Assembly: GCF_031624495.1 (NCBI RefSeq)
Contig: NZ_JAMQOP010000002.1
Span: 124,001 to 188,000 of the forward strand
DNA: 64,000 nucleotides
Origin: Halogeometricum sp. S1BR25-6
Lineage (GTDB): Archaea; Halobacteriota; Halobacteria; Halobacteriales; Haloferacaceae
Reading direction: 5' to 3'
Below, piece by piece: positions 1,297 to 7,855 of the stretch. Under the pieces are notes generated by a model that searched no databases, was not told the origin of the DNA, and worked only from the letters and a program-made list of their open reading frames with translations. Both the position numbers and the translations under genes were made by a program. The stretch's first letter is position 1, and each line of letters starts with the position of its first letter.

Positions 1297-2403
1297 ATGG
1301 GTATCGCTGAGACCTACTCACGCGGTCGCCGGTTCGCAGTCGACAGACCGGGGGCGCTTCTCTTGGCCGTCGTCGGAGTTCTCCTCGTCGGAGACCTTCT
1401 CACCGGCCTCGCCTCCGGGCGGACTGCATTCAGCGACGTGGGGTCGCTGATCTGGGACGGCCTCATGCGTGGGCTGGTGATCGGGTTGGCGGGAATCGGA
1501 CTCTCGATGACGTACAGTATTCTGAACTTCGCGAACTTCGCGCACGGCGATTACATCACCGCGGGGGCGTTCTCCGGGTGGGGGACGACCTACCTGCTGG
1601 CGGGCCTCGGACGCGCCGACATCGGGTCGCTGCTGCTCGTCGGCGCGGGCGGGTCGGTGTTCGGCGGCGCACTCGGTATCGGCATCACGGGGACGCCGAT
1701 AGCCGTCGTCGCCGGTCTGCTCGTCGCCGGCGCGTTCACCGTCGCCCTCTCGCTTGCGGTCGACCGGTTCATCTTCCGGCCGATTCGCGACGAGGACGGC
1801 ATCACGCTCCTCATCACGAGCATCGGCGTCGCGTTCGCGCTTCGCTACATGATGCAGTTCGTCTTCGGGTCGGACGTGCGCGGGACGACGGCGCAACCGC
1901 CGGCCGTCTCGCTGTACTTCGTCGACGGAGCGGTCCGCGTCAACATGCACGACCTGACGCTCGTCGTCGTCGCGGGCGGTCTGATGCTCGGCGTGCACCT
2001 CCTGCTTCAGCGGACGAAACTGGGCAAGGCGATGCGCGCGATGGCCGACAACGAGGACCTCGCGCGCGTCACGGGGATTCCGACCGAACGCGTCGTGCGG
2101 GCGGTGTGGATCATCGGGGGCGGTCTCACCGGCGTCGCCGGCTACATGTTCGTCCTCTGGAAGGGAACGCTCGGCTTCAACGACGGCTGGTTGCTTCTCC
2201 TCCTGATCTTCGCGGCCGTCATCCTCGGCGGCATCGGGTCGGTGTACGGCGCCATCGCGGGCGGCCTCGTCATCGGGCTGACGGCGTCGCTGTCGGTCAT
2301 CTGGATTCCATCGGCGTTCGCCCGCGCGGCGGCGTTCTTCGTGATGATCGTCATCCTGCTCGTGAAACCGTCCGGACTGTTCAGCGGGAGGTCGACCGCA
2401 TGA
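1297..2403 (+). CDS. livH: Branched-chain amino acid type ABC transporter permease LivH
   Basis: First gene of a four-gene ABC uptake operon. The 368 residues form a string of hydrophobic helices with the LivH signature early on (GLSMTYSILNFANFAHGDY) and the cytoplasmic EAA-like coupling region (GKAMRAMADNEDLARVTGI) near residues 245-265 that contacts the ATPases. It would build the membrane channel together with LivM. The start at 1297 has an A/T-rich AAATA about 20 nt upstream, compatible with a leaderless or short-leader promoter. The stop codon overlaps the next start (ATGA). The substrate is inferred from family only and could be another amino acid, an amide or urea. Confidence 0.9.
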   Translation: MGIAETYSRGRRFAVDRPGALLLAVVGVLLVGDLLTGLASGRTAFSDVGSLIWDGLMRGLVIGLAGIGLSMTYSILNFANFAHGDYITAGAFSGWGTTYLLAGLGRADIGSLLLVGAGGSVFGGALGIGITGTPIAVVAGLLVAGAFTVALSLAVDRFIFRPIRDEDGITLLITSIGVAFALRYMMQFVFGSDVRGTTAQPPAVSLYFVDGAVRVNMHDLTLVVVAGGLMLGVHLLLQRTKLGKAMRAMADNEDLARVTGIPTERVVRAVWIIGGGLTGVAGYMFVLWKGTLGFNDGWLLLLLIFAAVILGGIGSVYGAIAGGLVIGLTASLSVIWIPSAFARAAAFFVMIVILLVKPSGLFSGRSTA

Positions 2404-3746
2404 GCGTCCGAGAGGACCTCGCGGACCGAGTGCCCGGCGGCGACGCCGGTCTCATCGTCGCCGTGCTGGTCGTGCTGTACGTCGCGTACGTGCTCGCCGG
2501 GGTCGGTCTCGGCTACTCGCTGCGCGGCCAACTCAACACCGTCGCGGTGTTGACGTTCTACATCGGCGTCTTCGCCATGCTGGCGCTGGCGCTGAACTTA
2601 CATTGGGGGTACACCGGACTCTTCAACATCGGCATCGTCGGCTTCATGGCCGTCGGCATCTACGTGATGGCGCTGGTGTCGAAGCCGCTCTACCAGTCCG
2701 GCGGCGCGGCGCAGGTGGGCGGCCTCGGTCTCCCCCTCGTCGTCGGCATCGTCGCCGGCATGGTCGCCGCGGCGCTGCTCGGACTGGTGGTCGCCCTGCC
2801 GGCGCTCCGGTTGCGGGCCGACTACCTCGCTATCGTCACCATCGCGATGTCGGAAATCGTTCGATTCAGCTTCCTCTCGGGGGAGTTCCAGCAGTTCACC
2901 CTGTTCGGCGAACGCGTCGGCTTCGGCGGCGGGTCGGGGCTCATTCTCGACTTCACCGACCCCTTGCAGGCGTTCTTCGAGACGTTCGGTCTGTGGGGCG
3001 CCTACCTGAGTTTTGTCGACACCTTCGAGGCCATCGTCCCCACGAACCCGAAACCGGTCGTCGACGGTCTGGTGTACGGCGCGGTCCTGCTCCTGTTCGT
3101 CGCGGCGTACTACTGGCTGTTGAAGCGCACCGGCGAGTCGCCGTTCGGTCGCGTGCTCAAGGCCATCCGCGAGGACGAGGACGTGGCGAACTCGCTCGGG
3201 AAGGACACCAACCAGTTCAAAATCAAGTCGTTCATGCTCGGGTGCGCACTGATGGGGCTGGCGGGCATCCTCTGGTTCATGACGCAGGGGGCGGTGACGC
3301 CGAACACGTTCCGCCCGCGCATCACCTTCTTCGTCTGGATCGCGCTCATCATCGGCGGCGCGGGGTCGAACACCGGGAGCGTGCTCGGCGGCGCCGTCTT
3401 CGCGGCGGTGCTGTACCAGGGGCCGCGGTACTTCAAGAACCTCGTCGACGCCGCGCTCCCGTCGTTCAACGCGCCGTCGAGTTTCGGCCCGGCCGTGGCG
3501 CCGCTCATCTCGAATCTCAACCCGGCGCCGCTGTTCTACTACACCGTCGACAGTATTCGGCAGTTACAGCTCGTCCTGATGGGGCTGGTGCTCATCTGGT
3601 TGATGCACAACCGCCCCGAGGGGATGCTCGGCCACCGCAAGGAGACGGCCGCGGGCATCCCGCTCACGGCGAAACGTGCGCGCACCGCCGCGACGGACGG
3701 CGGCACCGAAAGCGACGACGGAGACGGAGGCGAACGCAATGAGTAA
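2400..3746 (+). CDS. livM: Branched-chain amino acid type ABC transporter permease LivM
   Basis: Second permease of the LIV-type importer, 448 residues when started at the ATG that overlaps the livH stop by 4 nt. Hydrophobic helices alternate with the LivM hallmark near residues 60-80 (ALNLHWGYTGLFNIG) and the coupling helix region (GRVLKAIREDEDVANSLGK). The C-terminus carries a long charged tail of about 60 residues. It overlaps livG by 8 nt, indicating translational coupling. It is expected to form a heterodimeric channel with LivH. Confidence 0.9.
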   Translation: MSVREDLADRVPGGDAGLIVAVLVVLYVAYVLAGVGLGYSLRGQLNTVAVLTFYIGVFAMLALALNLHWGYTGLFNIGIVGFMAVGIYVMALVSKPLYQSGGAAQVGGLGLPLVVGIVAGMVAAALLGLVVALPALRLRADYLAIVTIAMSEIVRFSFLSGEFQQFTLFGERVGFGGGSGLILDFTDPLQAFFETFGLWGAYLSFVDTFEAIVPTNPKPVVDGLVYGAVLLLFVAAYYWLLKRTGESPFGRVLKAIREDEDVANSLGKDTNQFKIKSFMLGCALMGLAGILWFMTQGAVTPNTFRPRITFFVWIALIIGGAGSNTGSVLGGAVFAAVLYQGPRYFKNLVDAALPSFNAPSSFGPAVAPLISNLNPAPLFYYTVDSIRQLQLVLMGLVLIWLMHNRPEGMLGHRKETAAGIPLTAKRARTAATDGGTESDDGDGGERNE

Positions 3747-4626
3747 GACCGAGAACGACGCGAACACGGACGCGAGCAAGACCGAGACCGAACCGAACGC
3801 GAGCGAGCCACCGGCCGACGCTCCCATCTTGGGCGGCGGCGGGCCGGCGGTGACCGCCGAACGGCCGCTCGAAGTCGACGGTCTGCGGAAGTCCTTCGGC
3901 GGCATCACGGCCGTCGACGGCGCGTCATTCTACGTCGAGGGCGGCACGCTGACGGGACTCATCGGCCCGAACGGCGCCGGTAAGTCGACGACGTTCAACC
4001 TCATCACGGGCATGCTGACGCCCGACCAGGGGACGGTGACGTTCAACGACGAGGACATCACCGGGATGGAGCCGCACGCCATCGCGAACAAAGGGCTCGT
4101 CCGGACGTTCCAAATCGCGCGCGAACTCGAGGATATGACCGTCTTGGAGAACATGATGCTCGCGCCGAAGGGGCAGCGCGGCGAGAAGCTCTGGCGGTCG
4201 GTGACGCCCGGCGTCCGCGACGACGTCATCGCGCAGGAGAAGGAGCTCCTCGAACGCGTCTGGGACGTCCTGGAGTTCTTCGACATCGACCACATCGCCG
4301 ACGAGTACGCGGGCAATCTCTCCGGCGGCCAGCGGAAACTGCTGGAGATGGCGCGGGCGCTCCTGACGGACCCCGACATGCTGCTCCTCGACGAACCGTT
4401 CGCGGGCGTCAACCCCTCCCTGGAGAAGCGCCTGCTCGAACACATCCACGCGCTGAAAGAGCAGGGGTACACCTTCCTCCTGGTCGAACACGACATGGAC
4501 CTCATCATGGAGAACTGCGAGCACGTCATCGTCCTGCACCAAGGCCGCGTCCTCACCGAGGGGACGCCGGCGGATATCAAATCGAACGAGGAGGTCATCG
4601 AGGCCTACCTCGGGGGGAACGTGTGA
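3739..4626 (+). CDS. livG: ABC transporter ATP-binding protein LivG
   Basis: ATPase subunit that powers the LIV-type importer. Walker A is GPNGAGKST, the ABC signature is LSGGQRKLLEMAR, Walker B is MLLLDEPFAGVNP and the switch His is in LLVEHDMDL. The roughly 45 residues before the ABC domain are a Thr/Glu/Asn-rich acidic extension, common in haloarchaea but absent from bacterial LivG. The start ATG lies inside the end of livM and the stop overlaps the GTG start of livF. Confidence 0.92.
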   Translation: MSKTENDANTDASKTETEPNASEPPADAPILGGGGPAVTAERPLEVDGLRKSFGGITAVDGASFYVEGGTLTGLIGPNGAGKSTTFNLITGMLTPDQGTVTFNDEDITGMEPHAIANKGLVRTFQIARELEDMTVLENMMLAPKGQRGEKLWRSVTPGVRDDVIAQEKELLERVWDVLEFFDIDHIADEYAGNLSGGQRKLLEMARALLTDPDMLLLDEPFAGVNPSLEKRLLEHIHALKEQGYTFLLVEHDMDLIMENCEHVIVLHQGRVLTEGTPADIKSNEEVIEAYLGGNV

Positions 4627-5444
4627 GCTCCGACGTCGACGTCGACGCCGACGCCGCGGACGCCTCGACCCCCGACTCCGCCGACGCGGGGGAAACGGCT
4701 GGCGCCGCCACCGCCGGGTCGACGCCCGAGGGCGAGGGCGCCGAACTGCTCCGCGTCCGGAACCTCGACGCGGGCTACGGCGACCTTCAAATCCTCACCG
4801 ACGTCGACATGGACGTCCACGACGGCGAGTACGTCACTATCGTCGGTCCGAACGGCGCGGGGAAGTCGACGCTGATGAAGTCCGTCTTCGGACTCACCAA
4901 CCTCATGGGCGGTACGGTGACGTTCGAGGGCGAAGACGTCACCGGACTGCAACCCGAGGACATCATCCACGAGGGCATCGGCTACGTGCCGCAGAACGAC
5001 AACGTGTTCGCCTCGCTCACGGTCCGCGAGAACCTGGAGATGGGGGCGTACATCCTCGACGAGGTGCCGCAGGACGCACTCGACATGGTGTTCGAGCGCT
5101 TCCCCATCTTGGAGGAGCGAGACGACCAGAAGGCCGGCACGATGTCCGGCGGGCAACAGCAGATGCTCGCGATGGGTCGCGCGCTGATGCTGGACCCGTC
5201 GCTGCTGCTCCTGGACGAACCGTCGGCCGGCCTCGCGCCCGACCTGGTCGAGGAGATGTTCGACAAGATAGACGAGATAAACGACGCCGGCACCGCGGTG
5301 CTGATGGTCGAACAGAACGCCAAGGAGGCGCTCAGACGCTGCGACCGCGGCTACGTCCTCGCCAACGGCGAGAACCGCTACGTCGACTCCGGCCGGGCGC
5401 TCTTAGAGGACGAGCAAGTGAGACGAGACTTCCTCGGCGGATAG
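4623..5444 (+). CDS. livF: ABC transporter ATP-binding protein LivF
   Basis: Second ATPase of the importer, 273 residues starting at a GTG that overlaps the livG stop (GTGA). Walker A GPNGAGKST, signature MSGGQQQMLAMGRAL, Walker B LLLLDEPSAGLAP and the LivF-typical VEQNAKEAL at the switch region are all present. As in LivG, an acidic low-complexity N-terminal extension of about 40 residues precedes the domain. It is the last gene of the livHMGF run; the solute-binding protein is encoded on the opposite strand just downstream. Confidence 0.92.
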   Translation: MSSDVDVDADAADASTPDSADAGETAGAATAGSTPEGEGAELLRVRNLDAGYGDLQILTDVDMDVHDGEYVTIVGPNGAGKSTLMKSVFGLTNLMGGTVTFEGEDVTGLQPEDIIHEGIGYVPQNDNVFASLTVRENLEMGAYILDEVPQDALDMVFERFPILEERDDQKAGTMSGGQQQMLAMGRALMLDPSLLLLDEPSAGLAPDLVEEMFDKIDEINDAGTAVLMVEQNAKEALRRCDRGYVLANGENRYVDSGRALLEDEQVRRDFLGG

Positions 5445-5603: not shown

Positions 5604-7019
5604 TCAGTTGCTCGACCCGGACAGCGCCGACTCGATGACCGAGGAGTACGACGACTCGCCGATGTTGAACGCCACCTGCGTGAGCACTTCGCCGTCGAAG
5701 CTGTCCTCGAAGACGCCGGAGAAGCGCTCCGAAAGCTGCTGGCCGTAGTCGTTGTTGACGTACAGCGTCGACACCGAGGAGGCGTTCAGTCGCTCGGCCA
5801 TCACCTGCGCCATCACGCGTCCCTGCAGGCGGTCCGACGGCGCCGTCCGGAAGATGTAGTCGTTGTCCTCCAGATTCGACACCGACAGCGCCGTCGACGA
5901 CGGCGAGCAGCCGATCATCTCGTTGGGGATGAACACCTGCTGAGAGACGGGGACGTTGACGCCCGAGGAGGCCGTCCCGCAGACGAACGGGACGCCCGCG
6001 CTGGCGAGCGACTGCGCCGCGGAGACGCCGGCGCTCGGCGAGGTCTGGGTGTCCTCTATCTGCTGGTTGACCGAGAGGCCCGCCGGGTTCGCGTCGTTGA
6101 CCAGCATGCCGGGAATCTGTGCGGCCTGAATCATCGGCTGGCCGGTCGAGGCGAGGTCGCCCGTCTCCGGCAGGAGGATTCCGAGCGATATCTCGCGGTC
6201 GCTGCCGCCGGGTCCGCTGTCCGCGGCGGGTCCGGCGCCGTTCGGGTTCTGTCCCTCGAACGACTGCGTCTCGAGGGTCGAGGTCGACTGCGAGTCGACG
6301 CCGTCGAACTCCCAGATGGCGTACGCCGCGGAGGCGGGGTCGCCGTTCTGGTCGAAGTTGGTCGACGAGGAGGCTCCTTGATAGTTGACGTCCTCGCCGT
6401 TGGCGGCGGCCTCGACGCCCTCGACGAAGTTGTTGGGGCCGACCTCCATCCCGCCGGGGTTGGCGATGCGCCGCATCTGTTCTTTGATGGCGGGCCCATT
6501 GTTCTCACCCGCTGCGGCGTTCGCCAGGATGCCGATGGCGGCCGAGTCGAACGACTGGGAGGTGAACACGCCGGGTGCGGAGCCGTACTCCTCCTGGAAG
6601 AGGGAGACGAACGCCTCCTGGTTCGGGCCGCCGGCCGCCGGCGCCGTCCCGGTCACGTTGTTCATGTCGTTGCCGACCTGCGCCGGGAGCGCGCCGTCGC
6701 GCAGGCCGTCGGGGATGAGGATGGCCTCGGCCCCGTCGGACTGGCTGTAGTAGTCGCGGAACAGCTGAATCCCGCTTTCGGGGTAGCCGATGACGACCAG
6801 TCCGTCCGGGCCGTCGCCGCTTCCGCCGCCGCCGCTACTGTCGGTCTCGGTGCCGGTACCCGCGTCGGTTCCCGACCCGGCGTCGGTCCCCGTCTCACCC
6901 TGCGTCTCGGTCCCGCCGTCGTCCGGGCTTCCGATACAACCCGAGAGGCCCACCACGCCCACTGCCCCGGCCGCACCCGCTCTTTTCAGAAAGTCACGCC
7001 GTACGATATCACGTGCCAT
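5604..7019 (-). CDS. ABC solute-binding lipoprotein of the LIV type, apparently circularly permuted
   Basis: A 471-residue Tat-exported lipoprotein: twin Arg at 7-8, hydrophobic segment, lipobox LSGC with Cys28, then a Gly/Thr/Asp/Glu linker to about residue 70. It should capture substrate for LivHMGF outside the cell. The order of parts is odd. Residues 71-256 begin with GLVVIGYPESGIQLFRDYY and match the C-terminal part of type I periplasmic binding proteins. A linker at 257-274 follows, then residues 275-471 open with the usual N-terminal strand (EISLGILLPETGDLASTG) and stop at SYSSVIESAL, the helix that in family members immediately precedes the GYPESG strand. Together the parts make one complete domain. 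The frame is open and clean, so this is not a frameshift. The gene has its own promoter and is convergent with livF. Confidence 0.88.
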   Translation of the reverse strand: MARDIVRRDFLKRAGAAGAVGVVGLSGCIGSPDDGGTETQGETGTDAGSGTDAGTGTETDSSGGGGSGDGPDGLVVIGYPESGIQLFRDYYSQSDGAEAILIPDGLRDGALPAQVGNDMNNVTGTAPAAGGPNQEAFVSLFQEEYGSAPGVFTSQSFDSAAIGILANAAAGENNGPAIKEQMRRIANPGGMEVGPNNFVEGVEAAANGEDVNYQGASSSTNFDQNGDPASAAYAIWEFDGVDSQSTSTLETQSFEGQNPNGAGPAADSGPGGSDREISLGILLPETGDLASTGQPMIQAAQIPGMLVNDANPAGLSVNQQIEDTQTSPSAGVSAAQSLASAGVPFVCGTASSGVNVPVSQQVFIPNEMIGCSPSSTALSVSNLEDNDYIFRTAPSDRLQGRVMAQVMAERLNASSVSTLYVNNDYGQQLSERFSGVFEDSFDGEVLTQVAFNIGESSYSSVIESALSGSSN

Positions 7020-7042
7020 GTGACACGCAAAGGCAGTTACCG

Positions 7043-7050
7043 TTTATAAA
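7043..7050 (-). promoter_or_regulatory. TATA box of the solute-binding lipoprotein gene
   Basis: TTTATAAA is centred about 27 nt before the ATG at 7019, the spacing expected for a leaderless haloarchaeal transcript. Confidence 0.65.
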
Positions 7051-7198
7051 TCTACCCTTCGACCCGTCAAAATGACTCGAATTCGCACGTCTGACACCCG
7101 TGAAACGTGAGCGATTGTTACTGACACACGAGGGAACGAGGGAGGCGCTTCGGAGGCGAACCGCCACGCTCAAATCGGCGCGGACGCGTTCTCCATCG

Positions 7199-7855
7199 AT
7201 GACCATCCCGTCGTTCGTCATCGGTATCGCGGGCGGGACCGGCGCGGGCAAGACCACCGTCGCGCGACTCATCACGGAGAACGTCGGCGAGTCCGTCACG
7301 CGCATCCCCATCGACAACTACTACGAAGACCTGAGCCACCTCGACCTCTCCGAACGCGAGGCGGTCAACTACGACCACCCCTCGGCGTTCGAGTGGGGTC
7401 TCCTGCGAGAACAGCTTTCGACGCTGTTGGAGGGGCGACCCATCGAGATGCCAGTGTACGACTTCGAGATTCACAACCGGAAGGACGAACCGACGACGGT
7501 GGAACCGACGGACGTCATCATCGTCGAGGGAATCCTCGCGCTGTACGACGAGGAGGTAAACGAGATGTTCGACCTGCGTCTCTACGTCGAGACGGACGCC
7601 GACGTTCGCATCCTCCGACGAATCGAACGCGACGTCATCGAACGCGGGCGCGACTTGGAGGGCGTCATCGACCAGTACCTCTCGACGGTGAAGCCGATGC
7701 ACGAGCAGTTCATCGAACCCTCGAAGAAACACGCGGACCTCATCATCCCCGAAGGAGCCAACAGCGTCGCGGTGAACCTCCTAGAGGAGAAGGTGATGGC
7801 GGAGGTACACGGCGACACGGTGCGCGACTGGGAGCGCCCGTCACCGGAGCGGTAG
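7199..7855 (+). CDS. udk: Uridine kinase
   Basis: Phosphorylates uridine/cytidine to the monophosphate in pyrimidine salvage. The 218-residue P-loop protein starts IPSFVIGIAGGTGAGKTT (Walker A), followed by the nucleoside-binding stretch IPIDNYYEDLSHL and DHPSAFEWGLL, then IIVEGILALYD (Walker B-like) and the lid region RRIERDVIERGR, all in uridine-kinase order. I chose the ATG at 7199, since upstream residues are not conserved-looking and the P-loop normally begins within ten residues of the start. Confidence 0.9.
   Translation: MTIPSFVIGIAGGTGAGKTTVARLITENVGESVTRIPIDNYYEDLSHLDLSEREAVNYDHPSAFEWGLLREQLSTLLEGRPIEMPVYDFEIHNRKDEPTTVEPTDVIIVEGILALYDEEVNEMFDLRLYVETDADVRILRRIERDVIERGRDLEGVIDQYLSTVKPMHEQFIEPSKKHADLIIPEGANSVAVNLLEEKVMAEVHGDTVRDWERPSPER

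Follow-up and report, generated by a model that had tools for sequence, protein, structure and literature searches.

Circular permutation of a LIV-type solute-binding lipoprotein at the haloarchaeal livJ locus and evidence for its repeated origin

Introduction

Why does the binding-protein gene beside the livHMGF genes of Halogeometricum sp. S1BR25-6 encode a LIV-type protein whose C-terminal half precedes its N-terminal half, and how often has this order arisen? Natural circular permutations are usually regarded as rare single events that are recognised long afterwards, and the usual route to them is a duplication followed by trimming. At the locus described here, the two orders are alternatives at one orthologous position in hundreds of species, and close sisters are found in each of the two states. 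The steps and constraints of a permutation, namely the cut site and the linker length, thereby become directly testable in tractable haloarchaea, as does any selective gain from where the lipid tether attaches to the binding protein. The window, i.e. the whole stretch of DNA that was analysed, comprises 64,000 nucleotides of contig NZ_JAMQOP010000002.1, and an initial annotation had read the gene as circularly permuted.

Two swapped halves of one LIV-type domain

The gene for the permuted LIV-type solute-binding lipoprotein (5604..7019, minus strand) was defined by its open reading frame, a profile match and a half-by-half comparison. It stands in the livJ position and encodes 471 amino acids in a frame that is open throughout exactly this interval, as the initial annotation had stated. 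The protein starts with an export signal that includes a lipid anchor, recognised by the Tat motif (NCBIfam TIGR01409) and by sequence (residues 1-28, RRDFLK ... LSGC; 6936..7019, minus strand), in which the lipobox LSGC places the cysteine at residue 28. All further segments lie on the same strand. A low-complexity tether of G, S, T and D, variable in length among relatives, covers residues 29-70 (6810..6935) and is followed by the ancestral C-terminal segment, which now comes first (residues 71-255, PDG-LVVIGYPESG ... ETQSFE; 6255..6809). The linker between the old C- and N-termini (GQNPNGAGPAADSGPGGSD; 6198..6254) measures 19 residues, close to the approximately 18 initially estimated. The ancestral N-terminal segment is now last (residues 275-467, REISLGILLPETG ... 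SYSSVIESALS; 5619..6197) and ends in a short new C-terminal tail, GSSN (5607..5618).

In the native order, a Pfam search maps residues 276-465 to positions 1-186 of the PF13458 profile. The first half, searched alone, maps to positions 191-312 of the same profile. Rotation of the protein into N-half plus C-half yields a single PF13458 match of residues 4-315 onto profile positions 1-312 and raises the score from 89.9 to 103.8 bits. Likewise, the structure 4gnr_A aligns with the rotated protein in one unbroken stretch along 2-317, and with the native order in two shuffled pieces. The proposed circular permutation and the rotated alignment suggested for it are thus borne out. The profile and half-by-half comparisons find the C-half ahead of the N-half and the canonical N-to-C order absent; at the level of sequence, they show a LIV-type (Peripla_BP_6) binding protein in which both domain halves are present and swapped. 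Since profile searches match such proteins only in part (here profile positions 1-186), such searches may overlook permuted members, or these may be wrongly annotated as fragments. The window's own genome holds three other PF13458 proteins, all canonical, and no other permuted LIV-type paralogue.

The orthologous livJ locus

The neighbouring genes, all on the plus strand, encode a livH-like permease (1297..2403), a livM-like permease (2400..3746), a livG-like ATPase whose start codon is uncertain (3676..4626) and a livF-like ATPase (4623..5444) that is convergent with the binding-protein gene. A uridine kinase (udk)-like gene follows (7100..7855, plus strand). In other genomes, livJ of either order usually faces livF-livG-livM-livH in convergent orientation, and udk lies on its far side in many of them. 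Three canonical relatives from outside Halobacteriales (L212-L214) also adjoin livF, livG, livM and livH. These comparisons show that the locus of the permuted gene is orthologous to that of canonical livJ. As the locus is the same for both orders, the permuted gene replaced the canonical one in place and is not a separate paralogue.

Several loci deviate from this arrangement. Four of them (L086, L087, L094 and L095) carry permuted binding-protein genes in tandem pairs beside livHMGF, at around 5.9-8.9 kb within each locus. Of the two copies, the first carries a lipobox; the second begins in a Tat-like manner, lacks the lipobox cysteine and has hardly any tether. Two Haloquadratum walsbyi loci encode an intact permuted binding protein next to apparently incomplete or rearranged livHMGF neighbours, a quick scan having found no livH in one (L045) and neither livM nor livG in the other (L047). 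In two further genomes (G013 and G309; loci L069 and L071), a permuted gene of clade A (see below) is present without livHMGF within the fetched flanks, and its product may work with a distant permease.

Distribution and selection

The search covered 40 near relatives and 392 Halobacteriales species genomes. Of the 392, 161 contain a full-length permuted relative, as counted by a gap in E-values between genomes with canonical proteins only (1e-31 to 1e-66) and those with permuted ones (1e-92 or better). Among the first 59 loci, half-by-half blastp assigned 40 to the permuted and 15 to the canonical order, a result well outside chance and at odds with an assembly error; in total, half-by-half comparison and profile search directly confirmed the order of 106 distinct permuted and 81 distinct canonical proteins, so that orthologues of both orders, which the initial annotation proposed to look for, do exist in other haloarchaea. 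Named records of the permuted form come from Halogeometricum pallidum (95% identical to the window protein), Haloferax, Halobellus, Haloquadratum, Salinigranum, Halorubrum and Halospeciosus, and one same-genus genome encodes an identical protein. Against four relatives, dN/dS is 0.10-0.24 (Nei-Gojobori), which shows that the permuted gene is kept under purifying selection. Nothing speaks for an assembly or annotation artefact, which is ruled out by the 161 species genomes, which include named isolates of Haloferax, Halorubrum, Halobellus, Salinigranum and Halogeometricum; together with the selection on the gene, they leave a negligible chance that an artefact or a pseudogene confined to this genome is involved.

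Outside Halobacteriales, all relatives seen have the canonical order, and among the matches listed, neither plasmids nor other parts of the phylum showed the permuted order. The initial annotation had allowed that homologues might commonly share the unusual order. This holds for many haloarchaeal orthologues and fails for the relatives outside Halobacteriales, which mark the canonical order as ancestral; the widespread form is therefore still a permutation, only an old and apparently recurrent one. Two individual genomes may be added. In G178, a clade B permuted gene (locus L186, about 5966-7070) is cut short at 368 codons inside the N-half and is either a pseudogene or a sequencing error. In G042, a canonical second livJ (L199) lies with livHMGF in a different orientation and a permuted livJ is found elsewhere, so both orders can coexist in one genome.

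Cut loop, linker and tether

The cut falls in a five-residue helix-to-strand loop just before the GYPESG strand, the same loop in which the initial annotation had placed both new ends. The canonical form reads AL(S)-xDDPD-LVVIGYP; the junction between the halves of canonical proteins measures five residues (sd 0.55), and relatives outside Halobacteriales carry a five-residue junction in similar form. In permuted proteins, the xDDPD loop is opened, with P-D usually retained at the new N-terminus and in some cases at the C-terminal end as well. Where the window protein ends in GSSN, its relatives end in GPDN, GPEN or APDS, and these tails are a possible trace of the loop's DDPD. The permuted linker spans 16-22 residues (sd 1.25 in clade A, 1.0 in clade B and 0 in clades C and D). 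Its constant length suggests that it may bridge the gap between the lobes, whereas the tether behind the lipobox varies freely, from 11 to 56 residues in clade A.

Number of origins

In a tree of rotated LivJ proteins, the permuted sequences fall into four clades nested among canonical ones, which were named A (with the window protein), B, C and D after the trees were seen. A careful version of this tree supports each of them at 100/100, with four changes across the 5-95% bootstrap range. Forcing all permuted sequences into one clade costs 87 log-likelihood units (AU p=0.0033). Among partial groupings, the AU test rejects A+B (p=0.03), A+C (p=0.019), A+C+D (p=0.015), B+C (p=0.0096) and B+C+D (p=8.8e-6), and it does not reject C+D (p=0.084) or A+D (p=0.137). 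Because gene conversion inside livJ could mislead this tree, a second one was built from the LivHMGF proteins. It also separates A (apart from the single uncertain entry L093), B and C/D, each with canonical sisters, and AU tests based on a quick tree under a plain LG+G4 model reject one clade (p=8e-49), A+B (5e-6), A+C+D (4e-5) and B+C+D (3e-9). Both trees thereby show that the permuted form is spread over several LivJ and LivHMGF lineages and that these do not group as a single clade.

Gene conversion is central to one rival account, in which a single ancient permutation spread by operon transfer and by conversion between canonical copies and one or the other half, which would make the trees separate the clades wrongly. 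Donors for such conversion exist, as several genomes carry both a permuted and a canonical LIV-type protein. In addition, the cut position is identical in clades A, B, C and D, linker length is similar, and the A and D linkers are somewhat alike (13 of 200 shuffles were as good); the shared cut and the A-D likeness are what a single origin would also give and count against repeated origin. Linker homology between clades was considered as proof of a single origin and rejected, since linkers of different clades, including A, B and C, are no more alike than shuffled ones. Moreover, the LivHMGF proteins, which conversion inside livJ leaves untouched, agree with the LivJ picture, and trees of each half alone recover the same four clades, with support too weak to force more than one origin. 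On balance, a single ancient permutation appears unlikely.

In a second rival account, the permutation arose once, at the base of the haloarchaeal livJ locus, and the canonical order was then restored repeatedly; its advantage is that a single gain at this exact loop is enough. When the tree is rooted on canonical non-haloarchaeal relatives, however, it demands about eight exact reversals, each restoring the same five-residue junction that relatives outside Halobacteriales have in similar form, compared with three gains that otherwise suffice. We regard this course of events as very improbable.

The best-supported reading is that permutation at this one loop took place independently at least three times. 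Because neither C+D nor A+D is rejected, the origins number three or four, not surely four: A, B and C count separately, and D either belongs with A or C or adds a fourth. It is likely, in our assessment, that one orthologous gene at one locus was permuted in the same loop at least three times and each time fixed a new linker of nearly equal length, a case of parallel evolution of topology.

Proposed route of permutation

Each event would have begun with an in-frame tandem duplication of livJ. The first N-half, between the signal and tether and the loop, would then have been lost, and the second copy would have been truncated in the same loop; this combination of duplication and trimming is proposed to have taken place at least three times in haloarchaea (clades A, B and C). 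The initial annotation had named the same route. The retained P-D and the GPDN, GPEN and APDS tails fit it, whereas its intermediate was not found: no N-C-N-C tandem was present among the fetched loci, where each ORF, even those of 733-1005 codons, gave one N and one C match. The flanks of the window gene hold no half-remnant above noise, in agreement with the earlier remark that no remnant follows the stop codon.

Function, fold and tethering

Homology and locus make it likely that the window protein acts as the amino-acid-binding protein of the adjacent LivHMGF importer, being encoded with its cognate permease and ATPases. The permuted chain would still fold as one type I (Venus-flytrap) domain in which the linker bridges the old termini, and would bind an amino acid in the cleft and deliver it to LivHM as canonical LivJ does. 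The motifs GYPESG and PDG of the first segment and ASSGVN and SPSSTA of the second are invariant in 21 aligned clade A proteins and presumably align with those stretches of LivJ in which ligand contacts lie. From general type I topology, we take the cut loop to lie on the side of lobe 2 that faces away from the ligand cleft; folding and docking therefore need not change much, while the tether would shift from lobe 1 to the far pole of lobe 2. Attachment of the lipid anchor in lobe 2 follows as a prediction from homology to LivJ. Since a lipobox is missing altogether from some permuted relatives, re-anchoring is not the whole story.

Structure prediction for the single fold was of low confidence: AlphaFold gave pLDDT values of 50 and 57 with full-length and domain-only alignments, which contain only 21-26 close homologues. 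A fold search matches LIV-type proteins, with only model residues 205-403 aligned to LIV residues ~1-200, and this match, mainly of the last 200 residues, is compatible with their being the former N-terminal half. The halves might conceivably no longer form one closed domain and instead build domain-swapped dimers or serve a new non-transport role such as sensing, as the lack of a confident single fold and the absence of a lipobox from some permuted copies would allow. This seems quite unlikely, given that all segments are retained with the family motifs, that the permuted gene is usually the binding-protein gene adjoining livHMGF, and that the few homologues in the alignment explain the poor models. 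The best explanation of the evidence as a whole, and to us a probable one, remains a LivHMGF binding lipoprotein permuted in lobe 2 that would keep one type I fold and would have arisen by duplication at least three times.

Comparison with known systems

The best-matching families and structures of the window protein are LIV-type. With the type I, cluster B proteins E. coli LivJ/LivK, Atu2422, S. pneumoniae LivJ (4gnr) and T. maritima LivK (3td9) it shares all sequence segments, the livHMGF locus and export as a lipoprotein. It differs from them in that its halves have exchanged places at the lobe-2 loop that precedes the GYPxSG strand, and the permuted proteins have the added linker of 16-22 residues and a tether predicted in lobe 2. 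Canonical haloarchaeal LivJ proteins (e.g. L119, L122, L135 and L147) have the same locus and neighbours and about 43-60% identity per half, and differ in having the N-half before the C-half with a five-residue junction.

Among type I substrate-binding lipoproteins, a natural circular permutation has been described for TpMglB-2 (Tp0684) of Treponema pallidum, termed "Type Ic / Cluster Bc", which keeps glucose binding and ligand-induced closing (PMC4990184). There, the cut lies in the N lobe, the order of the C lobe is untouched and a fourth hinge crossing is present; the type occurs in Treponema and Gram-positives, is a sugar binder and was not described as having originated repeatedly (PMC4990184). 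In contrast, the window protein is cut before the GYPESG strand, in lobe 2 as predicted by homology to LivJ, and has no sequence tie to the sugar-binding MglB. No report of a permuted haloarchaeal LivJ or other LIV-type protein, or of repeated permutation of the LIV family, was found in the literature searched. TpMglB-2 is a precedent that is cut elsewhere, and the recurrence of the permutation is what is new.
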